From NCBI RefSeq assembly GCF_000381985.1, contig NZ_KB907340.1:124001-188000 (forward strand): a DNA stretch of 64,000 bases, read 5' to 3'. The stretch is from Novispirillum itersonii subsp. itersonii ATCC 12639 (GTDB lineage: Bacteria > Pseudomonadota > Alphaproteobacteria > Rhodospirillales > Rhodospirillaceae). Made by a program: the position numbers and the translations under genes. The notes below the pieces were generated by a model. That model was not told where the DNA came from. It saw only the letters and a program-made list of their open reading frames with translations, and made no database searches. Positions 37,462 through 57,484 of the stretch are shown here, piece after piece. How positions within the stretch are numbered: position 1 is the stretch's first letter; each line of letters opens with the position of its first letter.

Positions 37462-40344
37462 TTATAGCGGAAGAACCTGCCCCAACAGAGAGGCAACCGC
37501 ATCCCCGCACACAGGTCTGGAGAACAGATAGCCCTGCCCCTGATCACACCCCTCCCCCCGCAGAAAGTCCCACTGCGCCCGCGTTTCGATCCCTTCGGCG
37601 ACAACAGACAGGCCCAAAGCCCGGGCCATCGCAATCACAGCCCGAACGATCGCGGCATCTTCCCCGCTGTCCGACACCCCATGGATGAAAGAGCGGTCAA
37701 TCTTCAGGTGTTGAATCGGAAAACGCCGCAAGACGGACAACGAGGAATATCCGGTCCCGAAGTCATCAATTGCACAGATAATTCCCATATCTTTCAATTG
37801 GGTAACAACAGAGATGGCCTGTGCCGGGTCTGCCATTGCCGACGTTTCCGTCAGCTCCAGCTCCAGCGCAGCCGGTAACAGCCGCCAGGTCTCAAGGGCT
37901 GTGCGGATTCCTGCCATCAACTGACGGCTATTCTGGAACTGCCGCCCGGAGATATTGACCGCAACCGGCACCGTCGGCAGGCCCCGATCCTGCCAATGCC
38001 GGATCCAGCGACAGGAGTCCTGCATCACCTGCTGGCAAATCGCATCAATCAGACCATAATCTTCAGCGATTTCAATAAATTCTGACGGGGGAACCATGCC
38101 CCTGTCCACGGTCTGCCAGCGGGCCAGAGCCTCCAGCCCGACGATCTGGCCCGTCGCCGTCTGAACCTTCGGCTGAAAGTGGGCAATAAACTGCCCGGCA
38201 TCCAACCCACGGCGGATCTTCTGGCGCATTGTCAGCATCTGGCTGGCCCGGCGACCCAGCGCTTCGGTGTAGATCTCAACCCCACCCGGCCCCTGACCTT
38301 TTGCCCGGTGCAGCGCTGCTTCCGCATGGCGGATCAGGGTATCTGCATCCAGACCATCCTGCGGATACATCGAGACGCCTGCCGAGACAGACAGATCAAA
38401 CTCTGACGGCCCAACGCTCACCGGGCTGATAAAGGCCTCGGAAATCCGTGCGATCACCGCCAGCAGGGCATCGCGGTCCCGCAACCCCGGCACCAGCAGC
38501 AGGAACTGGTCTCCCCCCGTCCGGCAGGCCAGCATCTCTTGCCCGGCCAGCGCCTGTAACCGCCCAGCCACCTGACGAAGCACCTGATCCCCGACGTCAT
38601 GCCCGCAGGTGGTGTTGATCATGGTGAAACGGTCAACCCCCAGCATCAGGACCCCCACCATACTGCGGGACCGGTCAGCGTCGGCCCGCGTGCCGGGAAA
38701 ACGGTCGAGAAACAGAGCCCGGTTCCCCAGACGGGTCAACGGGTCGTAATAAGCCAGAAAGGTCAGTTCATCCTCGACCCGCTTTCGGTCGGTGACATCC
38801 AGGGCCACACCATCCCATATCAGCCGCCCGGCCTCGACAGCACGGGGCGTACCCAGAAACCGAACCCAATGACCGATACCACTGCGGGCCCGCAGATACA
38901 GATCAAGCTCCAGCGGATCCATCCGATCCGCCGATTGCGCCAAGGCCTGCCGCAGGGTCTGGCACTGGGCCAGATCCATCAGCCCCGTAAAAACCTGCGG
39001 ATCAGCCGTCAGATCTGTGGGCAGAACCCCCAGAAGATCGCGGCACCCATCGCTGGCATACGTGAAAACCGCCCCACATGCCGCCGTCTCTTCCGGGACC
39101 GACAGGATCTGAAAGACCATCCCCTGCAAATTACCGGTAATGCTCAACAGGCGGTGCTCGCTGGCATGCAAACGGGCCTCGGTTTCGCGCCGCCGGGTGA
39201 TGTCACGGACCACGGCGATAAAGGTACGATGCCCGTCAGAGACCACTTCGGATACGGTCAGCTCCACCGGGATCAGACGCCCGTCAGAGCGACAGACGTC
39301 CATTTCATGCGGACCGGCCCCGATAATCCATCCCCCGCCCAGCTCATTATGCCGGGCCAACGCCTGCCGGTGCTCTTCGGCCTGATGATCAGGCATCAGA
39401 GAAAACACCGATTGCCCCTGCAAGGCCCCGGGGGACAGGTCGAACACCCGGGCAGCGGCGGCATTGATCAGCTCAATCGTCCCCAGATCATCAAAGGTCA
39501 GGATCCCGTCCGCCGCATGATCCATGATCATGCTCAGCCGCTGCTCGGCCAGCATCCGGTCACTGACATCAATCAGCACACAGTCCCAGCGGATATCCCC
39601 ATTCTCCATCCGCTCCGGTCTGGCGGTTCCGGACAACCAGCGGACCCGCCCGTCCCGCGTCACCGCCCGGACAGTCTCACTATAAGGGGTCAGATCAACG
39701 GCAGACCGGCGGATGCGGTCCATATAATCATCACGGTCCGCCCAGTGGAGACACCCCAGACAACCATCAGGGGTCACCCGCATGTCTGCCGGAGCATAGC
39801 CCAATGCATCCTGCACACCCCCGGAGAAGAACGGATAGTCTATCTGTCCGGTGGAGCGCATCACCCGATGGAAGACCAGACCGGGCAGGCCGGTGGCGAT
39901 CATACCGAGGCGGTCCTCCGCCTCAGCCCATCCAGAGGACGGGGCCTCGACCGGATCGGCAGGGCCGAAACGGCGCAGACTGAAAACCCGGACAGCATCG
40001 CTGCCCAGCCCCTGCGTCTGGATCGAAACTTCAAGAACCTGCCCGCCCCCACCCGAGGATGCCGGAAGGGTAACGGTCCCACGCGCCTTTTCCCCATCAA
40101 GACGGGTCATGAGCGTAAACAGATCCCGCTCAGTATCCGGCAGGTCGGCAATCTGATGACCAAGAACCCGCGCCGGATCAACGCCCAGCAGGCGAGCCGC
40201 CTGCGGGTTAATCAACGTCACGGTCTGGGCATCATCAATCACCACCAGACCAACGGACACCACAACCCCAGCCGCCTGAAAAATTTCAGCCACACTGGCG
40301 TGTCTCAGAAATTCCGCTGACTGAGGGGACAGGCCTGCACTCAT
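37462..40344 (-). CDS. PAS-GGDEF-EAL signalling protein, degenerate GGDEF
   Basis: A 960-residue c-di-GMP turnover protein. Several PAS-like domains lie in residues 15-540, followed by a GGDEF domain (about 540-700) and an EAL domain (about 715-960). The GGDEF site reads GGDQF, so cyclase activity is doubtful. The EAL side keeps LEALARW, ELTETS, AIDDFGTGYSSL, KIDRSFI, AEGIET and QGYLFSRP, as in active phosphodiesterases. No membrane segment is evident, so it is probably cytosolic. I chose the ATG at 40344 over a longer frame. It likely breaks down c-di-GMP in response to a PAS-sensed cue. Confidence 0.9.
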   Translation of the reverse strand: MSAGLSPQSAEFLRHASVAEIFQAAGVVVSVGLVVIDDAQTVTLINPQAARLLGVDPARVLGHQIADLPDTERDLFTLMTRLDGEKARGTVTLPASSGGGGQVLEVSIQTQGLGSDAVRVFSLRRFGPADPVEAPSSGWAEAEDRLGMIATGLPGLVFHRVMRSTGQIDYPFFSGGVQDALGYAPADMRVTPDGCLGCLHWADRDDYMDRIRRSAVDLTPYSETVRAVTRDGRVRWLSGTARPERMENGDIRWDCVLIDVSDRMLAEQRLSMIMDHAADGILTFDDLGTIELINAAAARVFDLSPGALQGQSVFSLMPDHQAEEHRQALARHNELGGGWIIGAGPHEMDVCRSDGRLIPVELTVSEVVSDGHRTFIAVVRDITRRRETEARLHASEHRLLSITGNLQGMVFQILSVPEETAACGAVFTYASDGCRDLLGVLPTDLTADPQVFTGLMDLAQCQTLRQALAQSADRMDPLELDLYLRARSGIGHWVRFLGTPRAVEAGRLIWDGVALDVTDRKRVEDELTFLAYYDPLTRLGNRALFLDRFPGTRADADRSRSMVGVLMLGVDRFTMINTTCGHDVGDQVLRQVAGRLQALAGQEMLACRTGGDQFLLLVPGLRDRDALLAVIARISEAFISPVSVGPSEFDLSVSAGVSMYPQDGLDADTLIRHAEAALHRAKGQGPGGVEIYTEALGRRASQMLTMRQKIRRGLDAGQFIAHFQPKVQTATGQIVGLEALARWQTVDRGMVPPSEFIEIAEDYGLIDAICQQVMQDSCRWIRHWQDRGLPTVPVAVNISGRQFQNSRQLMAGIRTALETWRLLPAALELELTETSAMADPAQAISVVTQLKDMGIICAIDDFGTGYSSLSVLRRFPIQHLKIDRSFIHGVSDSGEDAAIVRAVIAMARALGLSVVAEGIETRAQWDFLRGEGCDQGQGYLFSRPVCGDAVASLLGQVLPL

Positions 40345-40483
40345 TCCACCCCCTTTTCCGGGCTGAAGCGCCATCGCACGCCAGCCCCCATTCCCTACCC
40401 TGCATTTCTGTCCGCTCATCTCGGCGGATTAAGGGAAATGGTAACGCCGCCCGGGTGGTGACACAATACGCCGATCAGCGAAA

Positions 40484-53871: not shown

Positions 53872-56202
53872 TCACTTCCGCCCAATCGCCTTGTCCGGAT
53901 CAAACAAAGTCCAGCGGCCCTTTCCGGCCATCTTGGCGGTATACATGGCATCATCAGCATGGGACAGAAGTTCATCGGCGGTGTCGCCGTGTTCCGGGTA
54001 CAGAGCAACACCGATACTGACGCCGACCTGCAGGAAATGATCCATCCAGGGAATGGGTTCCTGCATCACGGTCAGCAGTTTTTCGGCAACATGCGCTGCC
54101 GTAGCGACAGCCTGCACATCGGGGAGCAACACCACAAACTCATCCCCGCCGATCCGGGCCGGGGTATCCGATTCCCGCAACGTCTGCCGCAGCCGCTGAC
54201 CGCTGACAGCCAGCACTTCATCCCCTGCATCATGACCGAAACGGTCGTTGACCGCTTTGAAACCGTCAAAATCGAGGAACAGAAGCGCAAGCTGGCCGGA
54301 GGTCCGGCGGGCCTGACGGATTGCAGTCATCAGCCGGTCTGATAGCAGAGAGCGGTTTGCCAGCCCGGTCAGCTGATCATACAGGGCCAGATACCGGATC
54401 CGGTCAACCGTCCGCCGCCGCTCAATGCTGATTGCAACGATGTCACAGATCCGGCGTTGCAGATCCAGTTCGCTGTCGGTCGGTGCCCGCTCGATCGTGA
54501 AATAAATCCCGATCGTCCCCAGAACACCACCGCTGGAGGCCAGAATCGGCTGGGACCAGCAGGCACGGAATCCAAACCGTTCCGCCAGCGGACGGTAATC
54601 CGCCCAGCAGGGATCGCGGATCAGATCGGTACTGATAACGGCCTCCCCGGTATACGCCGCCCGGCCACAGGAGCCGACGGACGGGCCAATATCGATCGCC
54701 CCCAGCACCGAGGAATAGTCCGGCGCCAACCCCGGTGCCGCAACGGTGCTCAACTGTTTCTGTTCTGACAGCACCATCAGGCTGCTGCGGGCCCCGGGAA
54801 TCTGGGAGTCCAGAAGGCGGCAGGCGCGGGCCGCCACCACCGGAAGATCCTCATCCCGACTGATCAGCTCCATCAGTTCGCGCTCGCCACGCAGCAGCGC
54901 TTCCGCCCGGCGGCGCTCCGTAATGTCAGTCCCGGCGCAGACCACATGACTGACGGTTCCGCCCCCGGTCTGAAGCAAGGGCGACATGGCCCAGCGGATC
55001 AGCCGCTGCTCACCGTTGGCAGCGGTCAGGGTTGATTCGAGTGTCCGCCCCGATCCTTCCGTTAAAACCGCATGAACTGCGGTCTCCACATCAACGCTGG
55101 CCCCAAAGTCCGCCAGTGCGGCACCCGTCATGTCGGCTTCGGCATAACCGGTTATCTGCTCACAGGCGCGGTTAAAGGTGACAACCCGCATTCTACGGTC
55201 AACCACCACCACCAGCGCGGCGACAGTCCGCAAAACTGTCGAAACGAAAGACTGCTCACGGTTCAGACGGGCGTTCGTCGCCTGCACGTCACTTAAAGCA
55301 CGCTCCAGCATCGTTTCGGCCATCCGGCGGGCCGTCACATCCCGAAGGAATAACGCAAAATGGGAAACGCGGCCTGTGGTGTCGAAAACCGGCGAGACCG
55401 ACAGCTCAAGCCAGTATTCCTCACCGCCAGCACGGCGGGCCAGAAGATCACAGGCAGCATCCCGCTTGGCTGACAGGGCCTGACGGATCCGGTCCAGCTC
55501 CGGCCCGTCTTCACAGTGTGACAGGAGGCGGTCGATCCCGCTCCCCAGAACCATATCATCCGTCAGCCCCGTGACAGAGGCGAAGGCCGGATTGGCATAC
55601 TGGATTTCAAAATCAGGGCTGCTCGCATTGACAATCAGGATGCCCTGACCGGATGCCACCAATGCCCCGTTCCGCAGCCGGAGCTCGCCTTCCCGCTCCC
55701 ACATTTTCCGTTCACGCCGGACAACGGCACTGACGTCGGAGATCTGGATCACGCAGCCGATATCCCCGACAGCCACCGGGCGGATCTGCACACTGATATC
55801 CAACAGCACACCGGGCTCATCCAGCGGGCGATGCAGCGGGATTGGGTGGTGGTGCAGCTTATTGGACAACAGACGGGACACCCCCAGCGACAGAGCATCA
55901 TTGATGCCGTCAAGCAGGCCGGGGGCCAACACATCCTCACCGAAAACCTGTTCCAGACGGCGCCCCGTGGCATGTGCCACATCAATACCGGCCATCCGGG
56001 TCATCCACGGATTCCAGTACAGAACCCGCCGCTCCCGGTCGAGCAGGATCACGCCCGATCCCATCGCATCGAGTACGGGGTACCCGATACTGTGCGCCCC
56101 CGGAACGGACAGATCTTCCCCACGGCTGCGGAGTCCGGTCTGTTCACTTAAAGACTGCATGGCTTCTTCGCTCGCCTTTTCCTGCCCCGCCGCATGTCTC
56201 AC
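53872..56202 (-). CDS. PAS-GAF diguanylate cyclase
   Basis: A 776-residue protein. Three PAS-like domains lie in residues 40-440 (such as YWNPWMTRMAG, QYANPAFASVTG and TFNRACEQITGY), followed by a GAF domain (about 450-600) and a GGDEF domain (about 610-770) with the intact catalytic site RIGGDEFVVLL. An inhibitory RxxD motif upstream is not apparent. The GTG start overlaps the stop of the CheC-like gene (GTGA); an ATG at 56160 is an alternative start. It makes c-di-GMP, probably under control of the two upstream genes. Confidence 0.88.
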   Translation of the reverse strand: MRHAAGQEKASEEAMQSLSEQTGLRSRGEDLSVPGAHSIGYPVLDAMGSGVILLDRERRVLYWNPWMTRMAGIDVAHATGRRLEQVFGEDVLAPGLLDGINDALSLGVSRLLSNKLHHHPIPLHRPLDEPGVLLDISVQIRPVAVGDIGCVIQISDVSAVVRRERKMWEREGELRLRNGALVASGQGILIVNASSPDFEIQYANPAFASVTGLTDDMVLGSGIDRLLSHCEDGPELDRIRQALSAKRDAACDLLARRAGGEEYWLELSVSPVFDTTGRVSHFALFLRDVTARRMAETMLERALSDVQATNARLNREQSFVSTVLRTVAALVVVVDRRMRVVTFNRACEQITGYAEADMTGAALADFGASVDVETAVHAVLTEGSGRTLESTLTAANGEQRLIRWAMSPLLQTGGGTVSHVVCAGTDITERRRAEALLRGERELMELISRDEDLPVVAARACRLLDSQIPGARSSLMVLSEQKQLSTVAAPGLAPDYSSVLGAIDIGPSVGSCGRAAYTGEAVISTDLIRDPCWADYRPLAERFGFRACWSQPILASSGGVLGTIGIYFTIERAPTDSELDLQRRICDIVAISIERRRTVDRIRYLALYDQLTGLANRSLLSDRLMTAIRQARRTSGQLALLFLDFDGFKAVNDRFGHDAGDEVLAVSGQRLRQTLRESDTPARIGGDEFVVLLPDVQAVATAAHVAEKLLTVMQEPIPWMDHFLQVGVSIGVALYPEHGDTADELLSHADDAMYTAKMAGKGRWTLFDPDKAIGRK

Positions 56203-56852
56203 CCGGACAGGTTCTCCAGATAGCGGTCAATCAACGACAGGAAAATCTGTGCCGCATTCATATCAATCAGAAACGCCAGATAGCCACGCAGATTTCTCGA
56301 CCGCAGCGTGAAGTCGATCTGCACCAGCATCACCAGCGTGTCTTCCTGATCTGCCCCAGCCGGAACCGGCGGGACCGGGGTAATCCGGTGAAAGGCCTCA
56401 AACATCTCCGGCCAGAGCCCGCGGTAGGTCTCCGGTAAGGACGCCCTGACCTCAGCCTGCAGAGTGTTCCCAATCGTGGCCAGACAATGGTTGAGAATGA
56501 TATTTCCCAGCTCCGCCAGCGTCTCCTGCTCCAGCTCGGAGATATCTTCCGCAGGCAGATCATCGCCGACCACCAGCCGCACCAGCTCCATACTGCGCGG
56601 ACCGGGGAAAATCAGGGCGGCCGTACCGGTGGCGAAACCGCTGAAAGTCTGCATCACCCCGGCCATCTGGCCACTGTCGGTCGCCTGAAGATGGGTCTGC
56701 GCCTGTTCCTGTGAACAGAACAGAACGTCGGGAACAGACAGCAGCACCTCATCCCCGACCAGACGGGAGAAAGCATCCGCAGCCCGCCCGACACCCAGAT
56801 TCATCAGCTCAGTGACCACATCCTGCTGATCTGGCGTCAAGGTGACCGTCAT
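56199..56852 (-). CDS. CheC-like phosphatase
   Basis: A 217-residue protein of the CheC/CheX/FliY phosphatase group, which dephosphorylates response regulators. The motif [DS]-x3-E-x2-N-x22-P is present in the first half: Asp11, Glu15, Asn18, Pro41. A second copy in the C-terminal half is Glu114, Asn117 and Pro140, with Glu110 in place of Asp/Ser. This two-site layout fits CheC. It lies between a response regulator (ATGA overlap) and a diguanylate cyclase (GTGA overlap). No receptor-linked chemotaxis gene is nearby, so it may serve the adjacent regulator. Confidence 0.86.
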   Translation of the reverse strand: MTVTLTPDQQDVVTELMNLGVGRAADAFSRLVGDEVLLSVPDVLFCSQEQAQTHLQATDSGQMAGVMQTFSGFATGTAALIFPGPRSMELVRLVVGDDLPAEDISELEQETLAELGNIILNHCLATIGNTLQAEVRASLPETYRGLWPEMFEAFHRITPVPPVPAGADQEDTLVMLVQIDFTLRSRNLRGYLAFLIDMNAAQIFLSLIDRYLENLSG

Positions 56853-57211
56853 TGTCCCGCCCCCGTCACAAACTGCTGCAACTGAGCCACCGAGGCCGGC
56901 TTGGCAATAAAAGCCATCCCGAGATCCGTGGCCCGGCGAGACACCGCATCCTGAATATTGGCCGTCACCAGTGCCATCCGTAAGGCGGGAAGGCTATCTT
57001 TCAGAACCCGCGCCAGCTCTAACCCATCATGACCGGGCATATTGAAGTCAATCAGGGCCAATGCAGGCGTATGCGTCTCAATCTGGGTCAGAGCCTCATC
57101 GTAGGATCCGGCCTCGACAATCGAGGCATCCGGTTCAATCTCCAGCAACTGACGGCGCAGCGACATGCGGGCAACCCGGCTGTCATCGACAATCAGAACG
57201 CAAAGACCCAT
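56849..57211 (-). CDS. Single-domain response regulator (CheY-like)
   Basis: A 120-residue receiver domain. Asp9 and Asp10 bind magnesium, Asp55 (LIDFNMPG) is the phosphorylation site, Thr83 and Lys104 complete the active site. There is no output domain, as in CheY. Its stop overlaps the ATG of the CheC-like gene by four bases. No histidine kinase gene lies nearby, so its kinase is elsewhere. Confidence 0.92.
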   Translation of the reverse strand: MGLCVLIVDDSRVARMSLRRQLLEIEPDASIVEAGSYDEALTQIETHTPALALIDFNMPGHDGLELARVLKDSLPALRMALVTANIQDAVSRRATDLGMAFIAKPASVAQLQQFVTGAGQ

Positions 57212-57484
57212 TCCAGCAACTCCCCTCGGCAGAAAGACAGGGGCTTACAGCCCTGTCCCCGGTGCAGCTCTCTGTCTGTATTAGCATGGGGATCCTGCGG
57301 GGATGCAATCGTTCAAAAGACCCAATATCCACAAATTTTATAATTTCAACATCCGCCCTCTGACCGCACTGTCCCCTCCCGCCCCGCTTAACGCTTTCTT
57401 TCCCCGGTCAGGAGCGGCATCCTGCGGCGATCAGGCCGGGCTGTGTCCCGCCCCGCTCTTTTCTGTATGATAACGAGGCTGACC

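Follow-up and report, generated by a model that had tools for sequence, protein, structure and literature searches.

Results

Organization of the locus

We analyzed a 64,000-nucleotide stretch of the Novispirillum itersonii subsp. itersonii ATCC 12639 genome (assembly GCF_000381985.1, contig NZ_KB907340.1, positions 124,001 to 188,000 of the forward strand), hereafter the window, and in it three neighbouring genes that had been predicted from the sequence to link a phosphorelay to cyclic dimeric GMP (c-di-GMP). The three genes are intact, and their coordinates and minus-strand orientation were confirmed. They encode a CheY-like response regulator, a CheC protein with two phosphatase sites, and a cyclase with the domain order PAS-PAS-PAS-GAF-GGDEF (Table 1). 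The regulator has Response_reg as the only domain in its 120 amino acids, and the full active site claimed for it is present, consisting of D9, D10, D55, T83, and K104. As its phospho-acceptor site is complete and an output domain is lacking, it belongs to the single-domain CheY-like class.

The CheC protein scored above the cut-off with both the CheC (35.0 bits) and the CheX (38.4 bits) model of Pfam and is the sole PF04509 match in the genome, while the NCBIfam model CheC_Thtogales, with a cut-off of 250, gave 46.6 bits. As predicted, it carries one exact and one near-exact phosphatase motif, the latter having E in place of D/S at its first position. In both motifs the key residues E, N, and P are invariant in 19 homologues, and therefore the two motifs are not there by chance. 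The AlphaFold model of the protein (mean predicted local distance difference test score, pLDDT, 88.6) could be superimposed on Thermotoga maritima CheC (2f9z_A) with a Z-score of 24.4 and a root-mean-square deviation of 2.3 over 191 aligned residues; the Z-score was 23.9 against 1xkr and about 17 against FliM. With a modeled CheC fold and E-x2-N pairs followed by a proline 22 residues after the asparagine, the protein is predicted to be a member of the CheC/CheX/FliY family.

The third protein had been described as a PAS-GAF-GGDEF protein with an intact GGDEF. The GGDEF domain is indeed intact, but three PAS domains were found instead of one. The protein has the features expected of an active diguanylate cyclase, namely an intact GGDEF signature (RESDTPARIGGDEF) with the I-site RESD before it, and the GGDEF letters as well as R676 and D679 are invariant in 23 cyclase-type relatives. 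A Pfam scan found no Response_reg in this protein; the receiver is not fused to the GGDEF domain.

Two overlaps, ATGA and GTGA, had been proposed to couple the three genes. The ATGA overlap between the regulator and cheC genes is real and recurs among relatives. For cheC and the cyclase gene, the letters of the GTGA overlap are also present in the window, but they are not conserved in a second genome of the same genus (G001), the CheC of which is 94% identical to the window CheC. There, cheC ends with TAA and does not overlap the cyclase gene. Since G001 lacks the overlap and has only the downstream ATG (position 56160 of the window) in common, the latter is the more likely translation start, the product probably has 762 amino acids, and the GTGA coupling of the two genes is probably not real.

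Conservation of the gene order and exchange of the third gene

By similarity to the window CheC, 113 CheC loci were collected from whole genomes and by a contig scan with a 10-row alignment; the collection is not a census. Conservation of the gene order had been set beforehand as a check on the prediction, and it was found: the regulator gene lies directly upstream of CheC in 104 of the 113 loci, and the third gene encodes a GGDEF protein in 37 of the 113. In the remaining loci the output of the third gene is a histidine kinase (50), the signalling domain of a methyl-accepting chemotaxis protein (MCP; 13, a few of which were assigned by their position within the Azospirillum clade), or another or no domain (13). 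GGDEF-type loci occur in Novispirillum, Insolitispirillum, Caenispirillum, Zobellella, Oceanisphaera, Marinobacterium, Aliikangiella, Comamonadaceae, and others, kinase-type loci in Bradyrhizobium, Ancylobacter, Reyranella, and many more, and MCP-type loci in Azospirillum and two Acetobacteraceae-type genomes. An "mcp" label that had appeared on kinase proteins was rejected as an artefact of a mixed training alignment.

The regulators of these loci are recognizable by the signature [TS]A[ND]xQ, which is present in every one of the 104 regulators encoded as separate proteins and absent from 99 of 106 other receivers nearby. D9, D10, D55, K104, and P105 are invariant across 91 of the cassette regulators.

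The outputs have been exchanged repeatedly. On the CheC tree, which is a quick tree with many open forks, the GGDEF label requires 10 changes, of which at least 5 are forced by well-supported branches. The window CheC groups with gammaproteobacterial cyclase-type members (Shimodaira-Hasegawa-like approximate likelihood ratio test support 99), and gammaproteobacterial cyclase-type cassettes are the nearest kin outside its own family for the regulator and for CheC. Because the two proteins show the same nearest kin, the sequences suggest that the cassette was transferred as a unit.

A constant N-terminal PAS domain

The third constant part is a cassette-specific N-terminal PAS domain, here named cPAS, for which a profile was built solely from the N-terminal PAS domains of the cyclases. 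When applied to 31 N-terminal PAS domains of kinase-type proteins, this profile scored 83-118 bits in 27 and 30-41 bits in the four most distant, while other PAS domains of the kinase-type proteins scored 12 bits or less. On inspection, high-scoring open reading frames (ORFs) beyond the first list of third genes were themselves third genes, either overlooked or duplicated. The window locus consists of a regulator with [TS]A[ND]xQ, a CheC, and an N-terminal cPAS in this order, which is the arrangement by which the REC-CheC-cPAS cassette (REC, receiver) is defined here.

Among 385 alphaproteobacterial genomes, 11 had cPAS and 15 had CheC, one of the CheC matches being weak and coming from a small genome; 10 genomes had both (Fisher p 6e-16, with kinship left in). 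In a sample of 369 Pseudomonadota genomes cPAS was present in 113, and a CheC homologue was found immediately beside it in 47 of the 49 loci read. Pairwise distances of the regulator, CheC, and cPAS correlate at 0.86-0.91. The model of the domain (pLDDT 93.6) has a PAS fold with Z-scores of up to 13.5; its neighbours in the PDB are generic PAS domains, none of which hinted at a ligand.

Natural fusions of the regulator and CheC

Twenty cPAS loci were fetched purposely, mostly from genomes without a strong CheC match nearby. In 15 of them the regulator and CheC form one protein of 327-372 amino acids, followed by either a cPAS-GGDEF protein (about 320 amino acids) or a stand-alone cPAS (about 145 amino acids). 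All 15 fusions have kept the first phosphatase motif (E15, N18, and P41), the second motif is degenerate, and in their receivers S[GA]DxQ replaces [TS]A[ND]xQ. The fusions were found only in loci of the phylum-wide sample outside the Alphaproteobacteria, and their genomes appear to be gammaproteobacterial, judging from the sample and from the other matches among which they fall. As judged from sequence, they are the best evidence for CheC acting on its regulator, and the presence of a stand-alone cPAS beside them indicates that cPAS, and not the output, belongs to the pair. Pfam detected the receiver alone in the three fusions scanned and in a fourth, L231; as the members otherwise look generic, the cassette is common yet easily overlooked. 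An apparent read-through fusion of regulator and CheC in alphaproteobacterial loci was rejected, the long CheC ORFs being upstream extensions in another frame.

Chemosensory context

It had been noted that no chemotaxis operon adjoins the three genes, and this holds for the whole window, in which we detected neither a further receiver gene nor a histidine kinase or MCP. The genome has a single CheA. It lies on another contig (C1), in the flagellar che operon, of which the window regulator (contig C4) is not a part and which has its own receiver protein beside CheA, together with ORFs that are CheB-like and CheR-like by sequence and a histidine phosphotransferase upstream. The gene of the latter (HPTransfase, ChpT-like) is directly upstream of CheA (L188, 9433-10140, minus strand).

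CheZ is present in the genome, whereas CheD (PF03975) gave no match there, although it did in control genomes. Hence, flagellar chemotaxis does not have to rely on the window CheC, which is probably neither a general CheY phosphatase nor a member of a CheC-CheD adaptation system.

A gene for CheA lies just upstream of the cassette in 30 of the 50 kinase-type loci and in none of the 37 cyclase-type loci. In Bradyrhizobium, the genes follow one another as CheW, CheB, HEAT-repeat protein, CheR, CheY, CheA, regulator, CheC, and cPAS-kinase. This points to CheA as the phosphodonor in the CheA-linked kinase-type branch. In Azospirillum (L109-L122; L112, 6582-14269), the regulator-CheC pair is followed by a soluble MCP-like protein that has two signalling stretches and no cPAS; downstream of this protein in L112 are CheB, a HEAT-repeat protein, CheR, and CheY, so that the pair heads a chemosensory operon. 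A HEAT-repeat protein between CheB and CheR, as in Azospirillum L112, was likewise seen in operons ending in regulator, CheC, and cPAS-kinase (L076, 13-9950).

Table 1. Features of the cassette and its relatives. Positions refer to the window unless a locus is named; aa, amino acids.
Feature	Position	Strand	Basis or remark
CheY-like single-domain response regulator, 120 aa	56849..57211	-	Pfam Response_reg, 69.2 bits
Codon of the phosphorylatable aspartate D55	57047..57049	-	Invariant, 91/91
Regulator signature T83-A-N-I-Q87, [TS]A[ND]xQ	56951..56965	-	Motif in 104/104 cassette regulators
ATGA stop/start overlap, regulator/cheC	56849..56852	-	Sequence; 4-bp overlap in 62/104 relatives
Predicted two-site CheC-family phosphatase, 217 aa	56199..56852	-	Pfam CheC and CheX above cut-off; predicted fold
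CheC phosphatase motif 1, exact, D11-x3-E15-x2-N18-x22-P41	56730..56822	-	E15, N18, P41 invariant in 19 homologues
CheC phosphatase motif 2, near-exact, E110-x3-E114-x2-N117-x22-P140	56433..56525	-	E114, N117, P140 invariant in 19 homologues
Predicted diguanylate cyclase, cPAS-PAS-PAS-GAF-GGDEF, 762 aa from ATG 56160 (776 aa from GTG 56202)	53872..56160	-	
cPAS, residues 38-175 counted from GTG 56202	55678..56091	-	Profile trained on diguanylate cyclases; model
Second PAS domain, residues 184-293	55324..55653	-	PAS_4 match
Third PAS domain, from residue 323, end approximate	54913..55236	-	PAS_10 323-394 and third PAS_4/PAS stretch
GAF domain, residues 452-594	54421..54849	-	GAF_2, 52.4 bits
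GGDEF domain, residues 606-762	53917..54387	-	165.9 bits
RESD I-site and GGDEF active site, RESDTPARIGGDEF	54136..54177	-	Sequence
Promoter-like TTGCAT-19-TAATAC, TG one base before second hexamer, upstream of regulator	57278..57308	-	Kept in G001
Stand-alone cPAS proteins beside fused REC-CheC	L220 3299-3736; L223 3334-3777; L231 3399-3836		No output of their own

Discussion

The original prediction held that CheC resets the regulator and that one of the two controls the cyclase. The regulator-CheC pairing, the invariant residues, the fusions, and the constant cPAS lend this indirect support. The prediction did not contain cPAS, the swapping of outputs, the REC-CheC fusions, the kinase-type version, or the version behind CheA. 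Taking these together, we consider it moderately probable that the window holds a stand-alone copy of a widespread three-part cassette whose CheC resets the regulator and whose regulator-CheC pair acts on the cyclase by way of cPAS. The regulator would be phosphorylated by an unlinked kinase, for which CheA or any orphan histidine kinase is a candidate. CheC would then strip the phosphate from the regulator, as suggested by its conserved catalytic residues, the constant pairing, the natural fusions, and what is known of the CheC/DifG family. The phosphorylation state, in the form of either the free phosphorylated regulator or a regulator-CheC complex, would be passed to cPAS and set the rate of c-di-GMP synthesis; control through cPAS is proposed because the regulator, CheC, and cPAS stay constant while the outputs change. 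The remaining PAS domains and the GAF domain could supply further inputs, and the I-site could provide product feedback.

Several observations weigh against this reading. In Azospirillum and the two Acetobacteraceae-type loci the third gene is MCP-like and has no cPAS. Two of the 49 cPAS loci have no CheC, and at L232 (3908-4522) the CheC beside a cPAS-kinase has no E-x2-N motif at site 1; this CheC may have an adaptor role without catalysis. Finally, the constancy of cPAS is the single argument for a contact of the pair with this domain.

The closest competitor, which we regard as possible though the less probable of the two, assigns the role of direct messenger to CheC itself, which in a complex with the phosphorylated regulator would dock on cPAS or leave it, while the phosphatase would serve mainly as a timer. 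A fused REC-CheC followed by a stand-alone cPAS suggests precisely such a REC-CheC : cPAS pair. In addition, CheD, the known partner of CheC, is missing from the genome. CheC of Bacillus and Thermotoga binds CheD in a manner dependent on phosphorylated CheY, and an effect of phosphorylated CheY on CheC-CheD binding is on record (PMC3513319). The distance correlation is also highest between CheC and cPAS (0.91), but the differences between the correlations are small and confounded by kinship.

It is unlikely, in our opinion, that the regulator and CheC act on some other target, for instance a chemosensory array or the flagellar motor, and that the neighbouring cyclase or kinase forms a parallel branch outside their control behind a common promoter. 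The frequent position of kinase-type cassettes behind CheA in full chemosensory operons would agree with this, as would BCAM2837 of Burkholderia cenocepacia, a REC and CheC protein whose gene, situated beside cyclase and kinase genes, is needed for swarming (PMC3296584). However, a parallel branch accounts neither for one PAS domain staying with the regulator and CheC while the output changes nor for the stand-alone cPAS beside REC-CheC. Judged by its description and not by sequence, BCAM2837, apparently cotranscribed with the diguanylate cyclase and histidine kinase genes (PMC3296584), probably belongs to our cassette class. It differs in being fused instead of separate, and the report on it concerns one locus and a swarming phenotype and gives no mechanism (PMC3296584).

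The regulator could also be a phosphate sink for CheA, with the cyclase being incidental. The accessible part of a report on Myxococcus xanthus describes such a case, in which the CheC homologue DifG speeds the dephosphorylation of the single-domain regulator DifD, which is phosphorylated by DifE and diverts phosphate from this kinase (PMC4671073). The position of CheA ahead of the cassette in more than half of the kinase-type loci would favour a sink; none of the cyclase-type cassettes adjoins CheA, however, and the constancy of cPAS would be unexplained, so that we hold this to be quite improbable. The Dif pair, as far as that source describes it, resembles ours in combining a single-domain regulator with a CheC homologue in a role outside classical flagellar chemotaxis, and differs in belonging to the Dif chemosensory system and in having no cyclase or cPAS partner described there. 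Least probable of all is a reversed signal, running from the third protein to the regulator and CheC: about half of the relatives encode a kinase as the third gene and, according to the part of a report available, Caulobacter has the CheY-like c-di-GMP effectors CleA and CleD (PMC11481889), but cyclase-type and cPAS-only versions have no kinase, so phosphorylation of the regulator by it is not a general rule, and, on inspection of its sequence alone, an arginine-rich stretch like that of the Cle proteins is not apparent in the regulator.

The cassette can be compared with other known systems. In PleD and WspR, phosphorylation of a receiver controls the GGDEF enzyme to which it is fused, whereas in the window the receiver stands apart from the cyclase, which has cPAS in its stead. 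The CheC proteins of Thermotoga maritima and Bacillus subtilis share the fold and the two E-x2-N motifs with the window CheC, but they serve flagellar chemotaxis together with CheD. The Che3 system of Rhodospirillum centenum (CheA3-CheS3-CheY3), which controls development, is similarly chemosensory-like and includes a single-domain CheY as well as an additional histidine kinase, the sensing of which may involve a PAS domain; in the available part of that report, its output is a kinase and not a cyclase, and no CheC is named (PMC3868531). Thus, regulator/CheC pairs outside flagellar chemotaxis were already known from DifD-DifG, and a REC and CheC protein beside cyclase and kinase genes had been described once, as BCAM2837. 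Our search of the open literature, which did not extend to key reviews, found no description of the three-part cassette, of cPAS, or of the output exchange, although an earlier description is possible.

The cassette seems to be a plug-in signalling unit of wide distribution that has no name yet. How chemosensory and other phosphorelays reach c-di-GMP when no receiver is fused to the cyclase is mostly unexplained, and the cassette offers a recurring and testable solution, in which a regulator encoded apart is paired with a phosphatase and a single conserved PAS domain bears different outputs. Should cPAS prove to be the docking site, the outputs would become predictable and could be rewired through domain exchange. 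A broader proposal, which we put forward as speculative and rather doubtful, is that REC-CheC-cPAS is a distinct general-purpose switch of the Pseudomonadota, in which CheC is more than a phosphatase and forms part of a phosphorylation-gated complex docking on cPAS, so that whatever output lies behind cPAS, GGDEF or histidine kinase, comes under the control of chemosensory or other kinases. In that case the cassette would connect CheA-type sensing to c-di-GMP in a portable form.

Additional observations

Upstream of the regulator gene, the promoter-like element was kept in G001 while its flanks diverge. A consensus scan did not return it, the spacer limit of the scan being 18 and the spacer of the element 19, and it is given here as a suggestion for a candidate promoter of the regulator. 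A second c-di-GMP protein of 985 amino acids with PAS, GGDEF, and EAL domains is encoded in the window (37462-40419, minus strand) and has no visible link to the cassette. The window gave no sign of a mobile-element origin, though no dedicated search was made, and CheC relatives were found on large Azospirillum plasmids and on other plasmids. At several loci, two tandem CheC genes precede the cPAS protein (L171, 3883-7734; L236, 770-5297; L190, L191, L195, L200, L203, and L218), and in L171 and L236 the regulator lies upstream of both.

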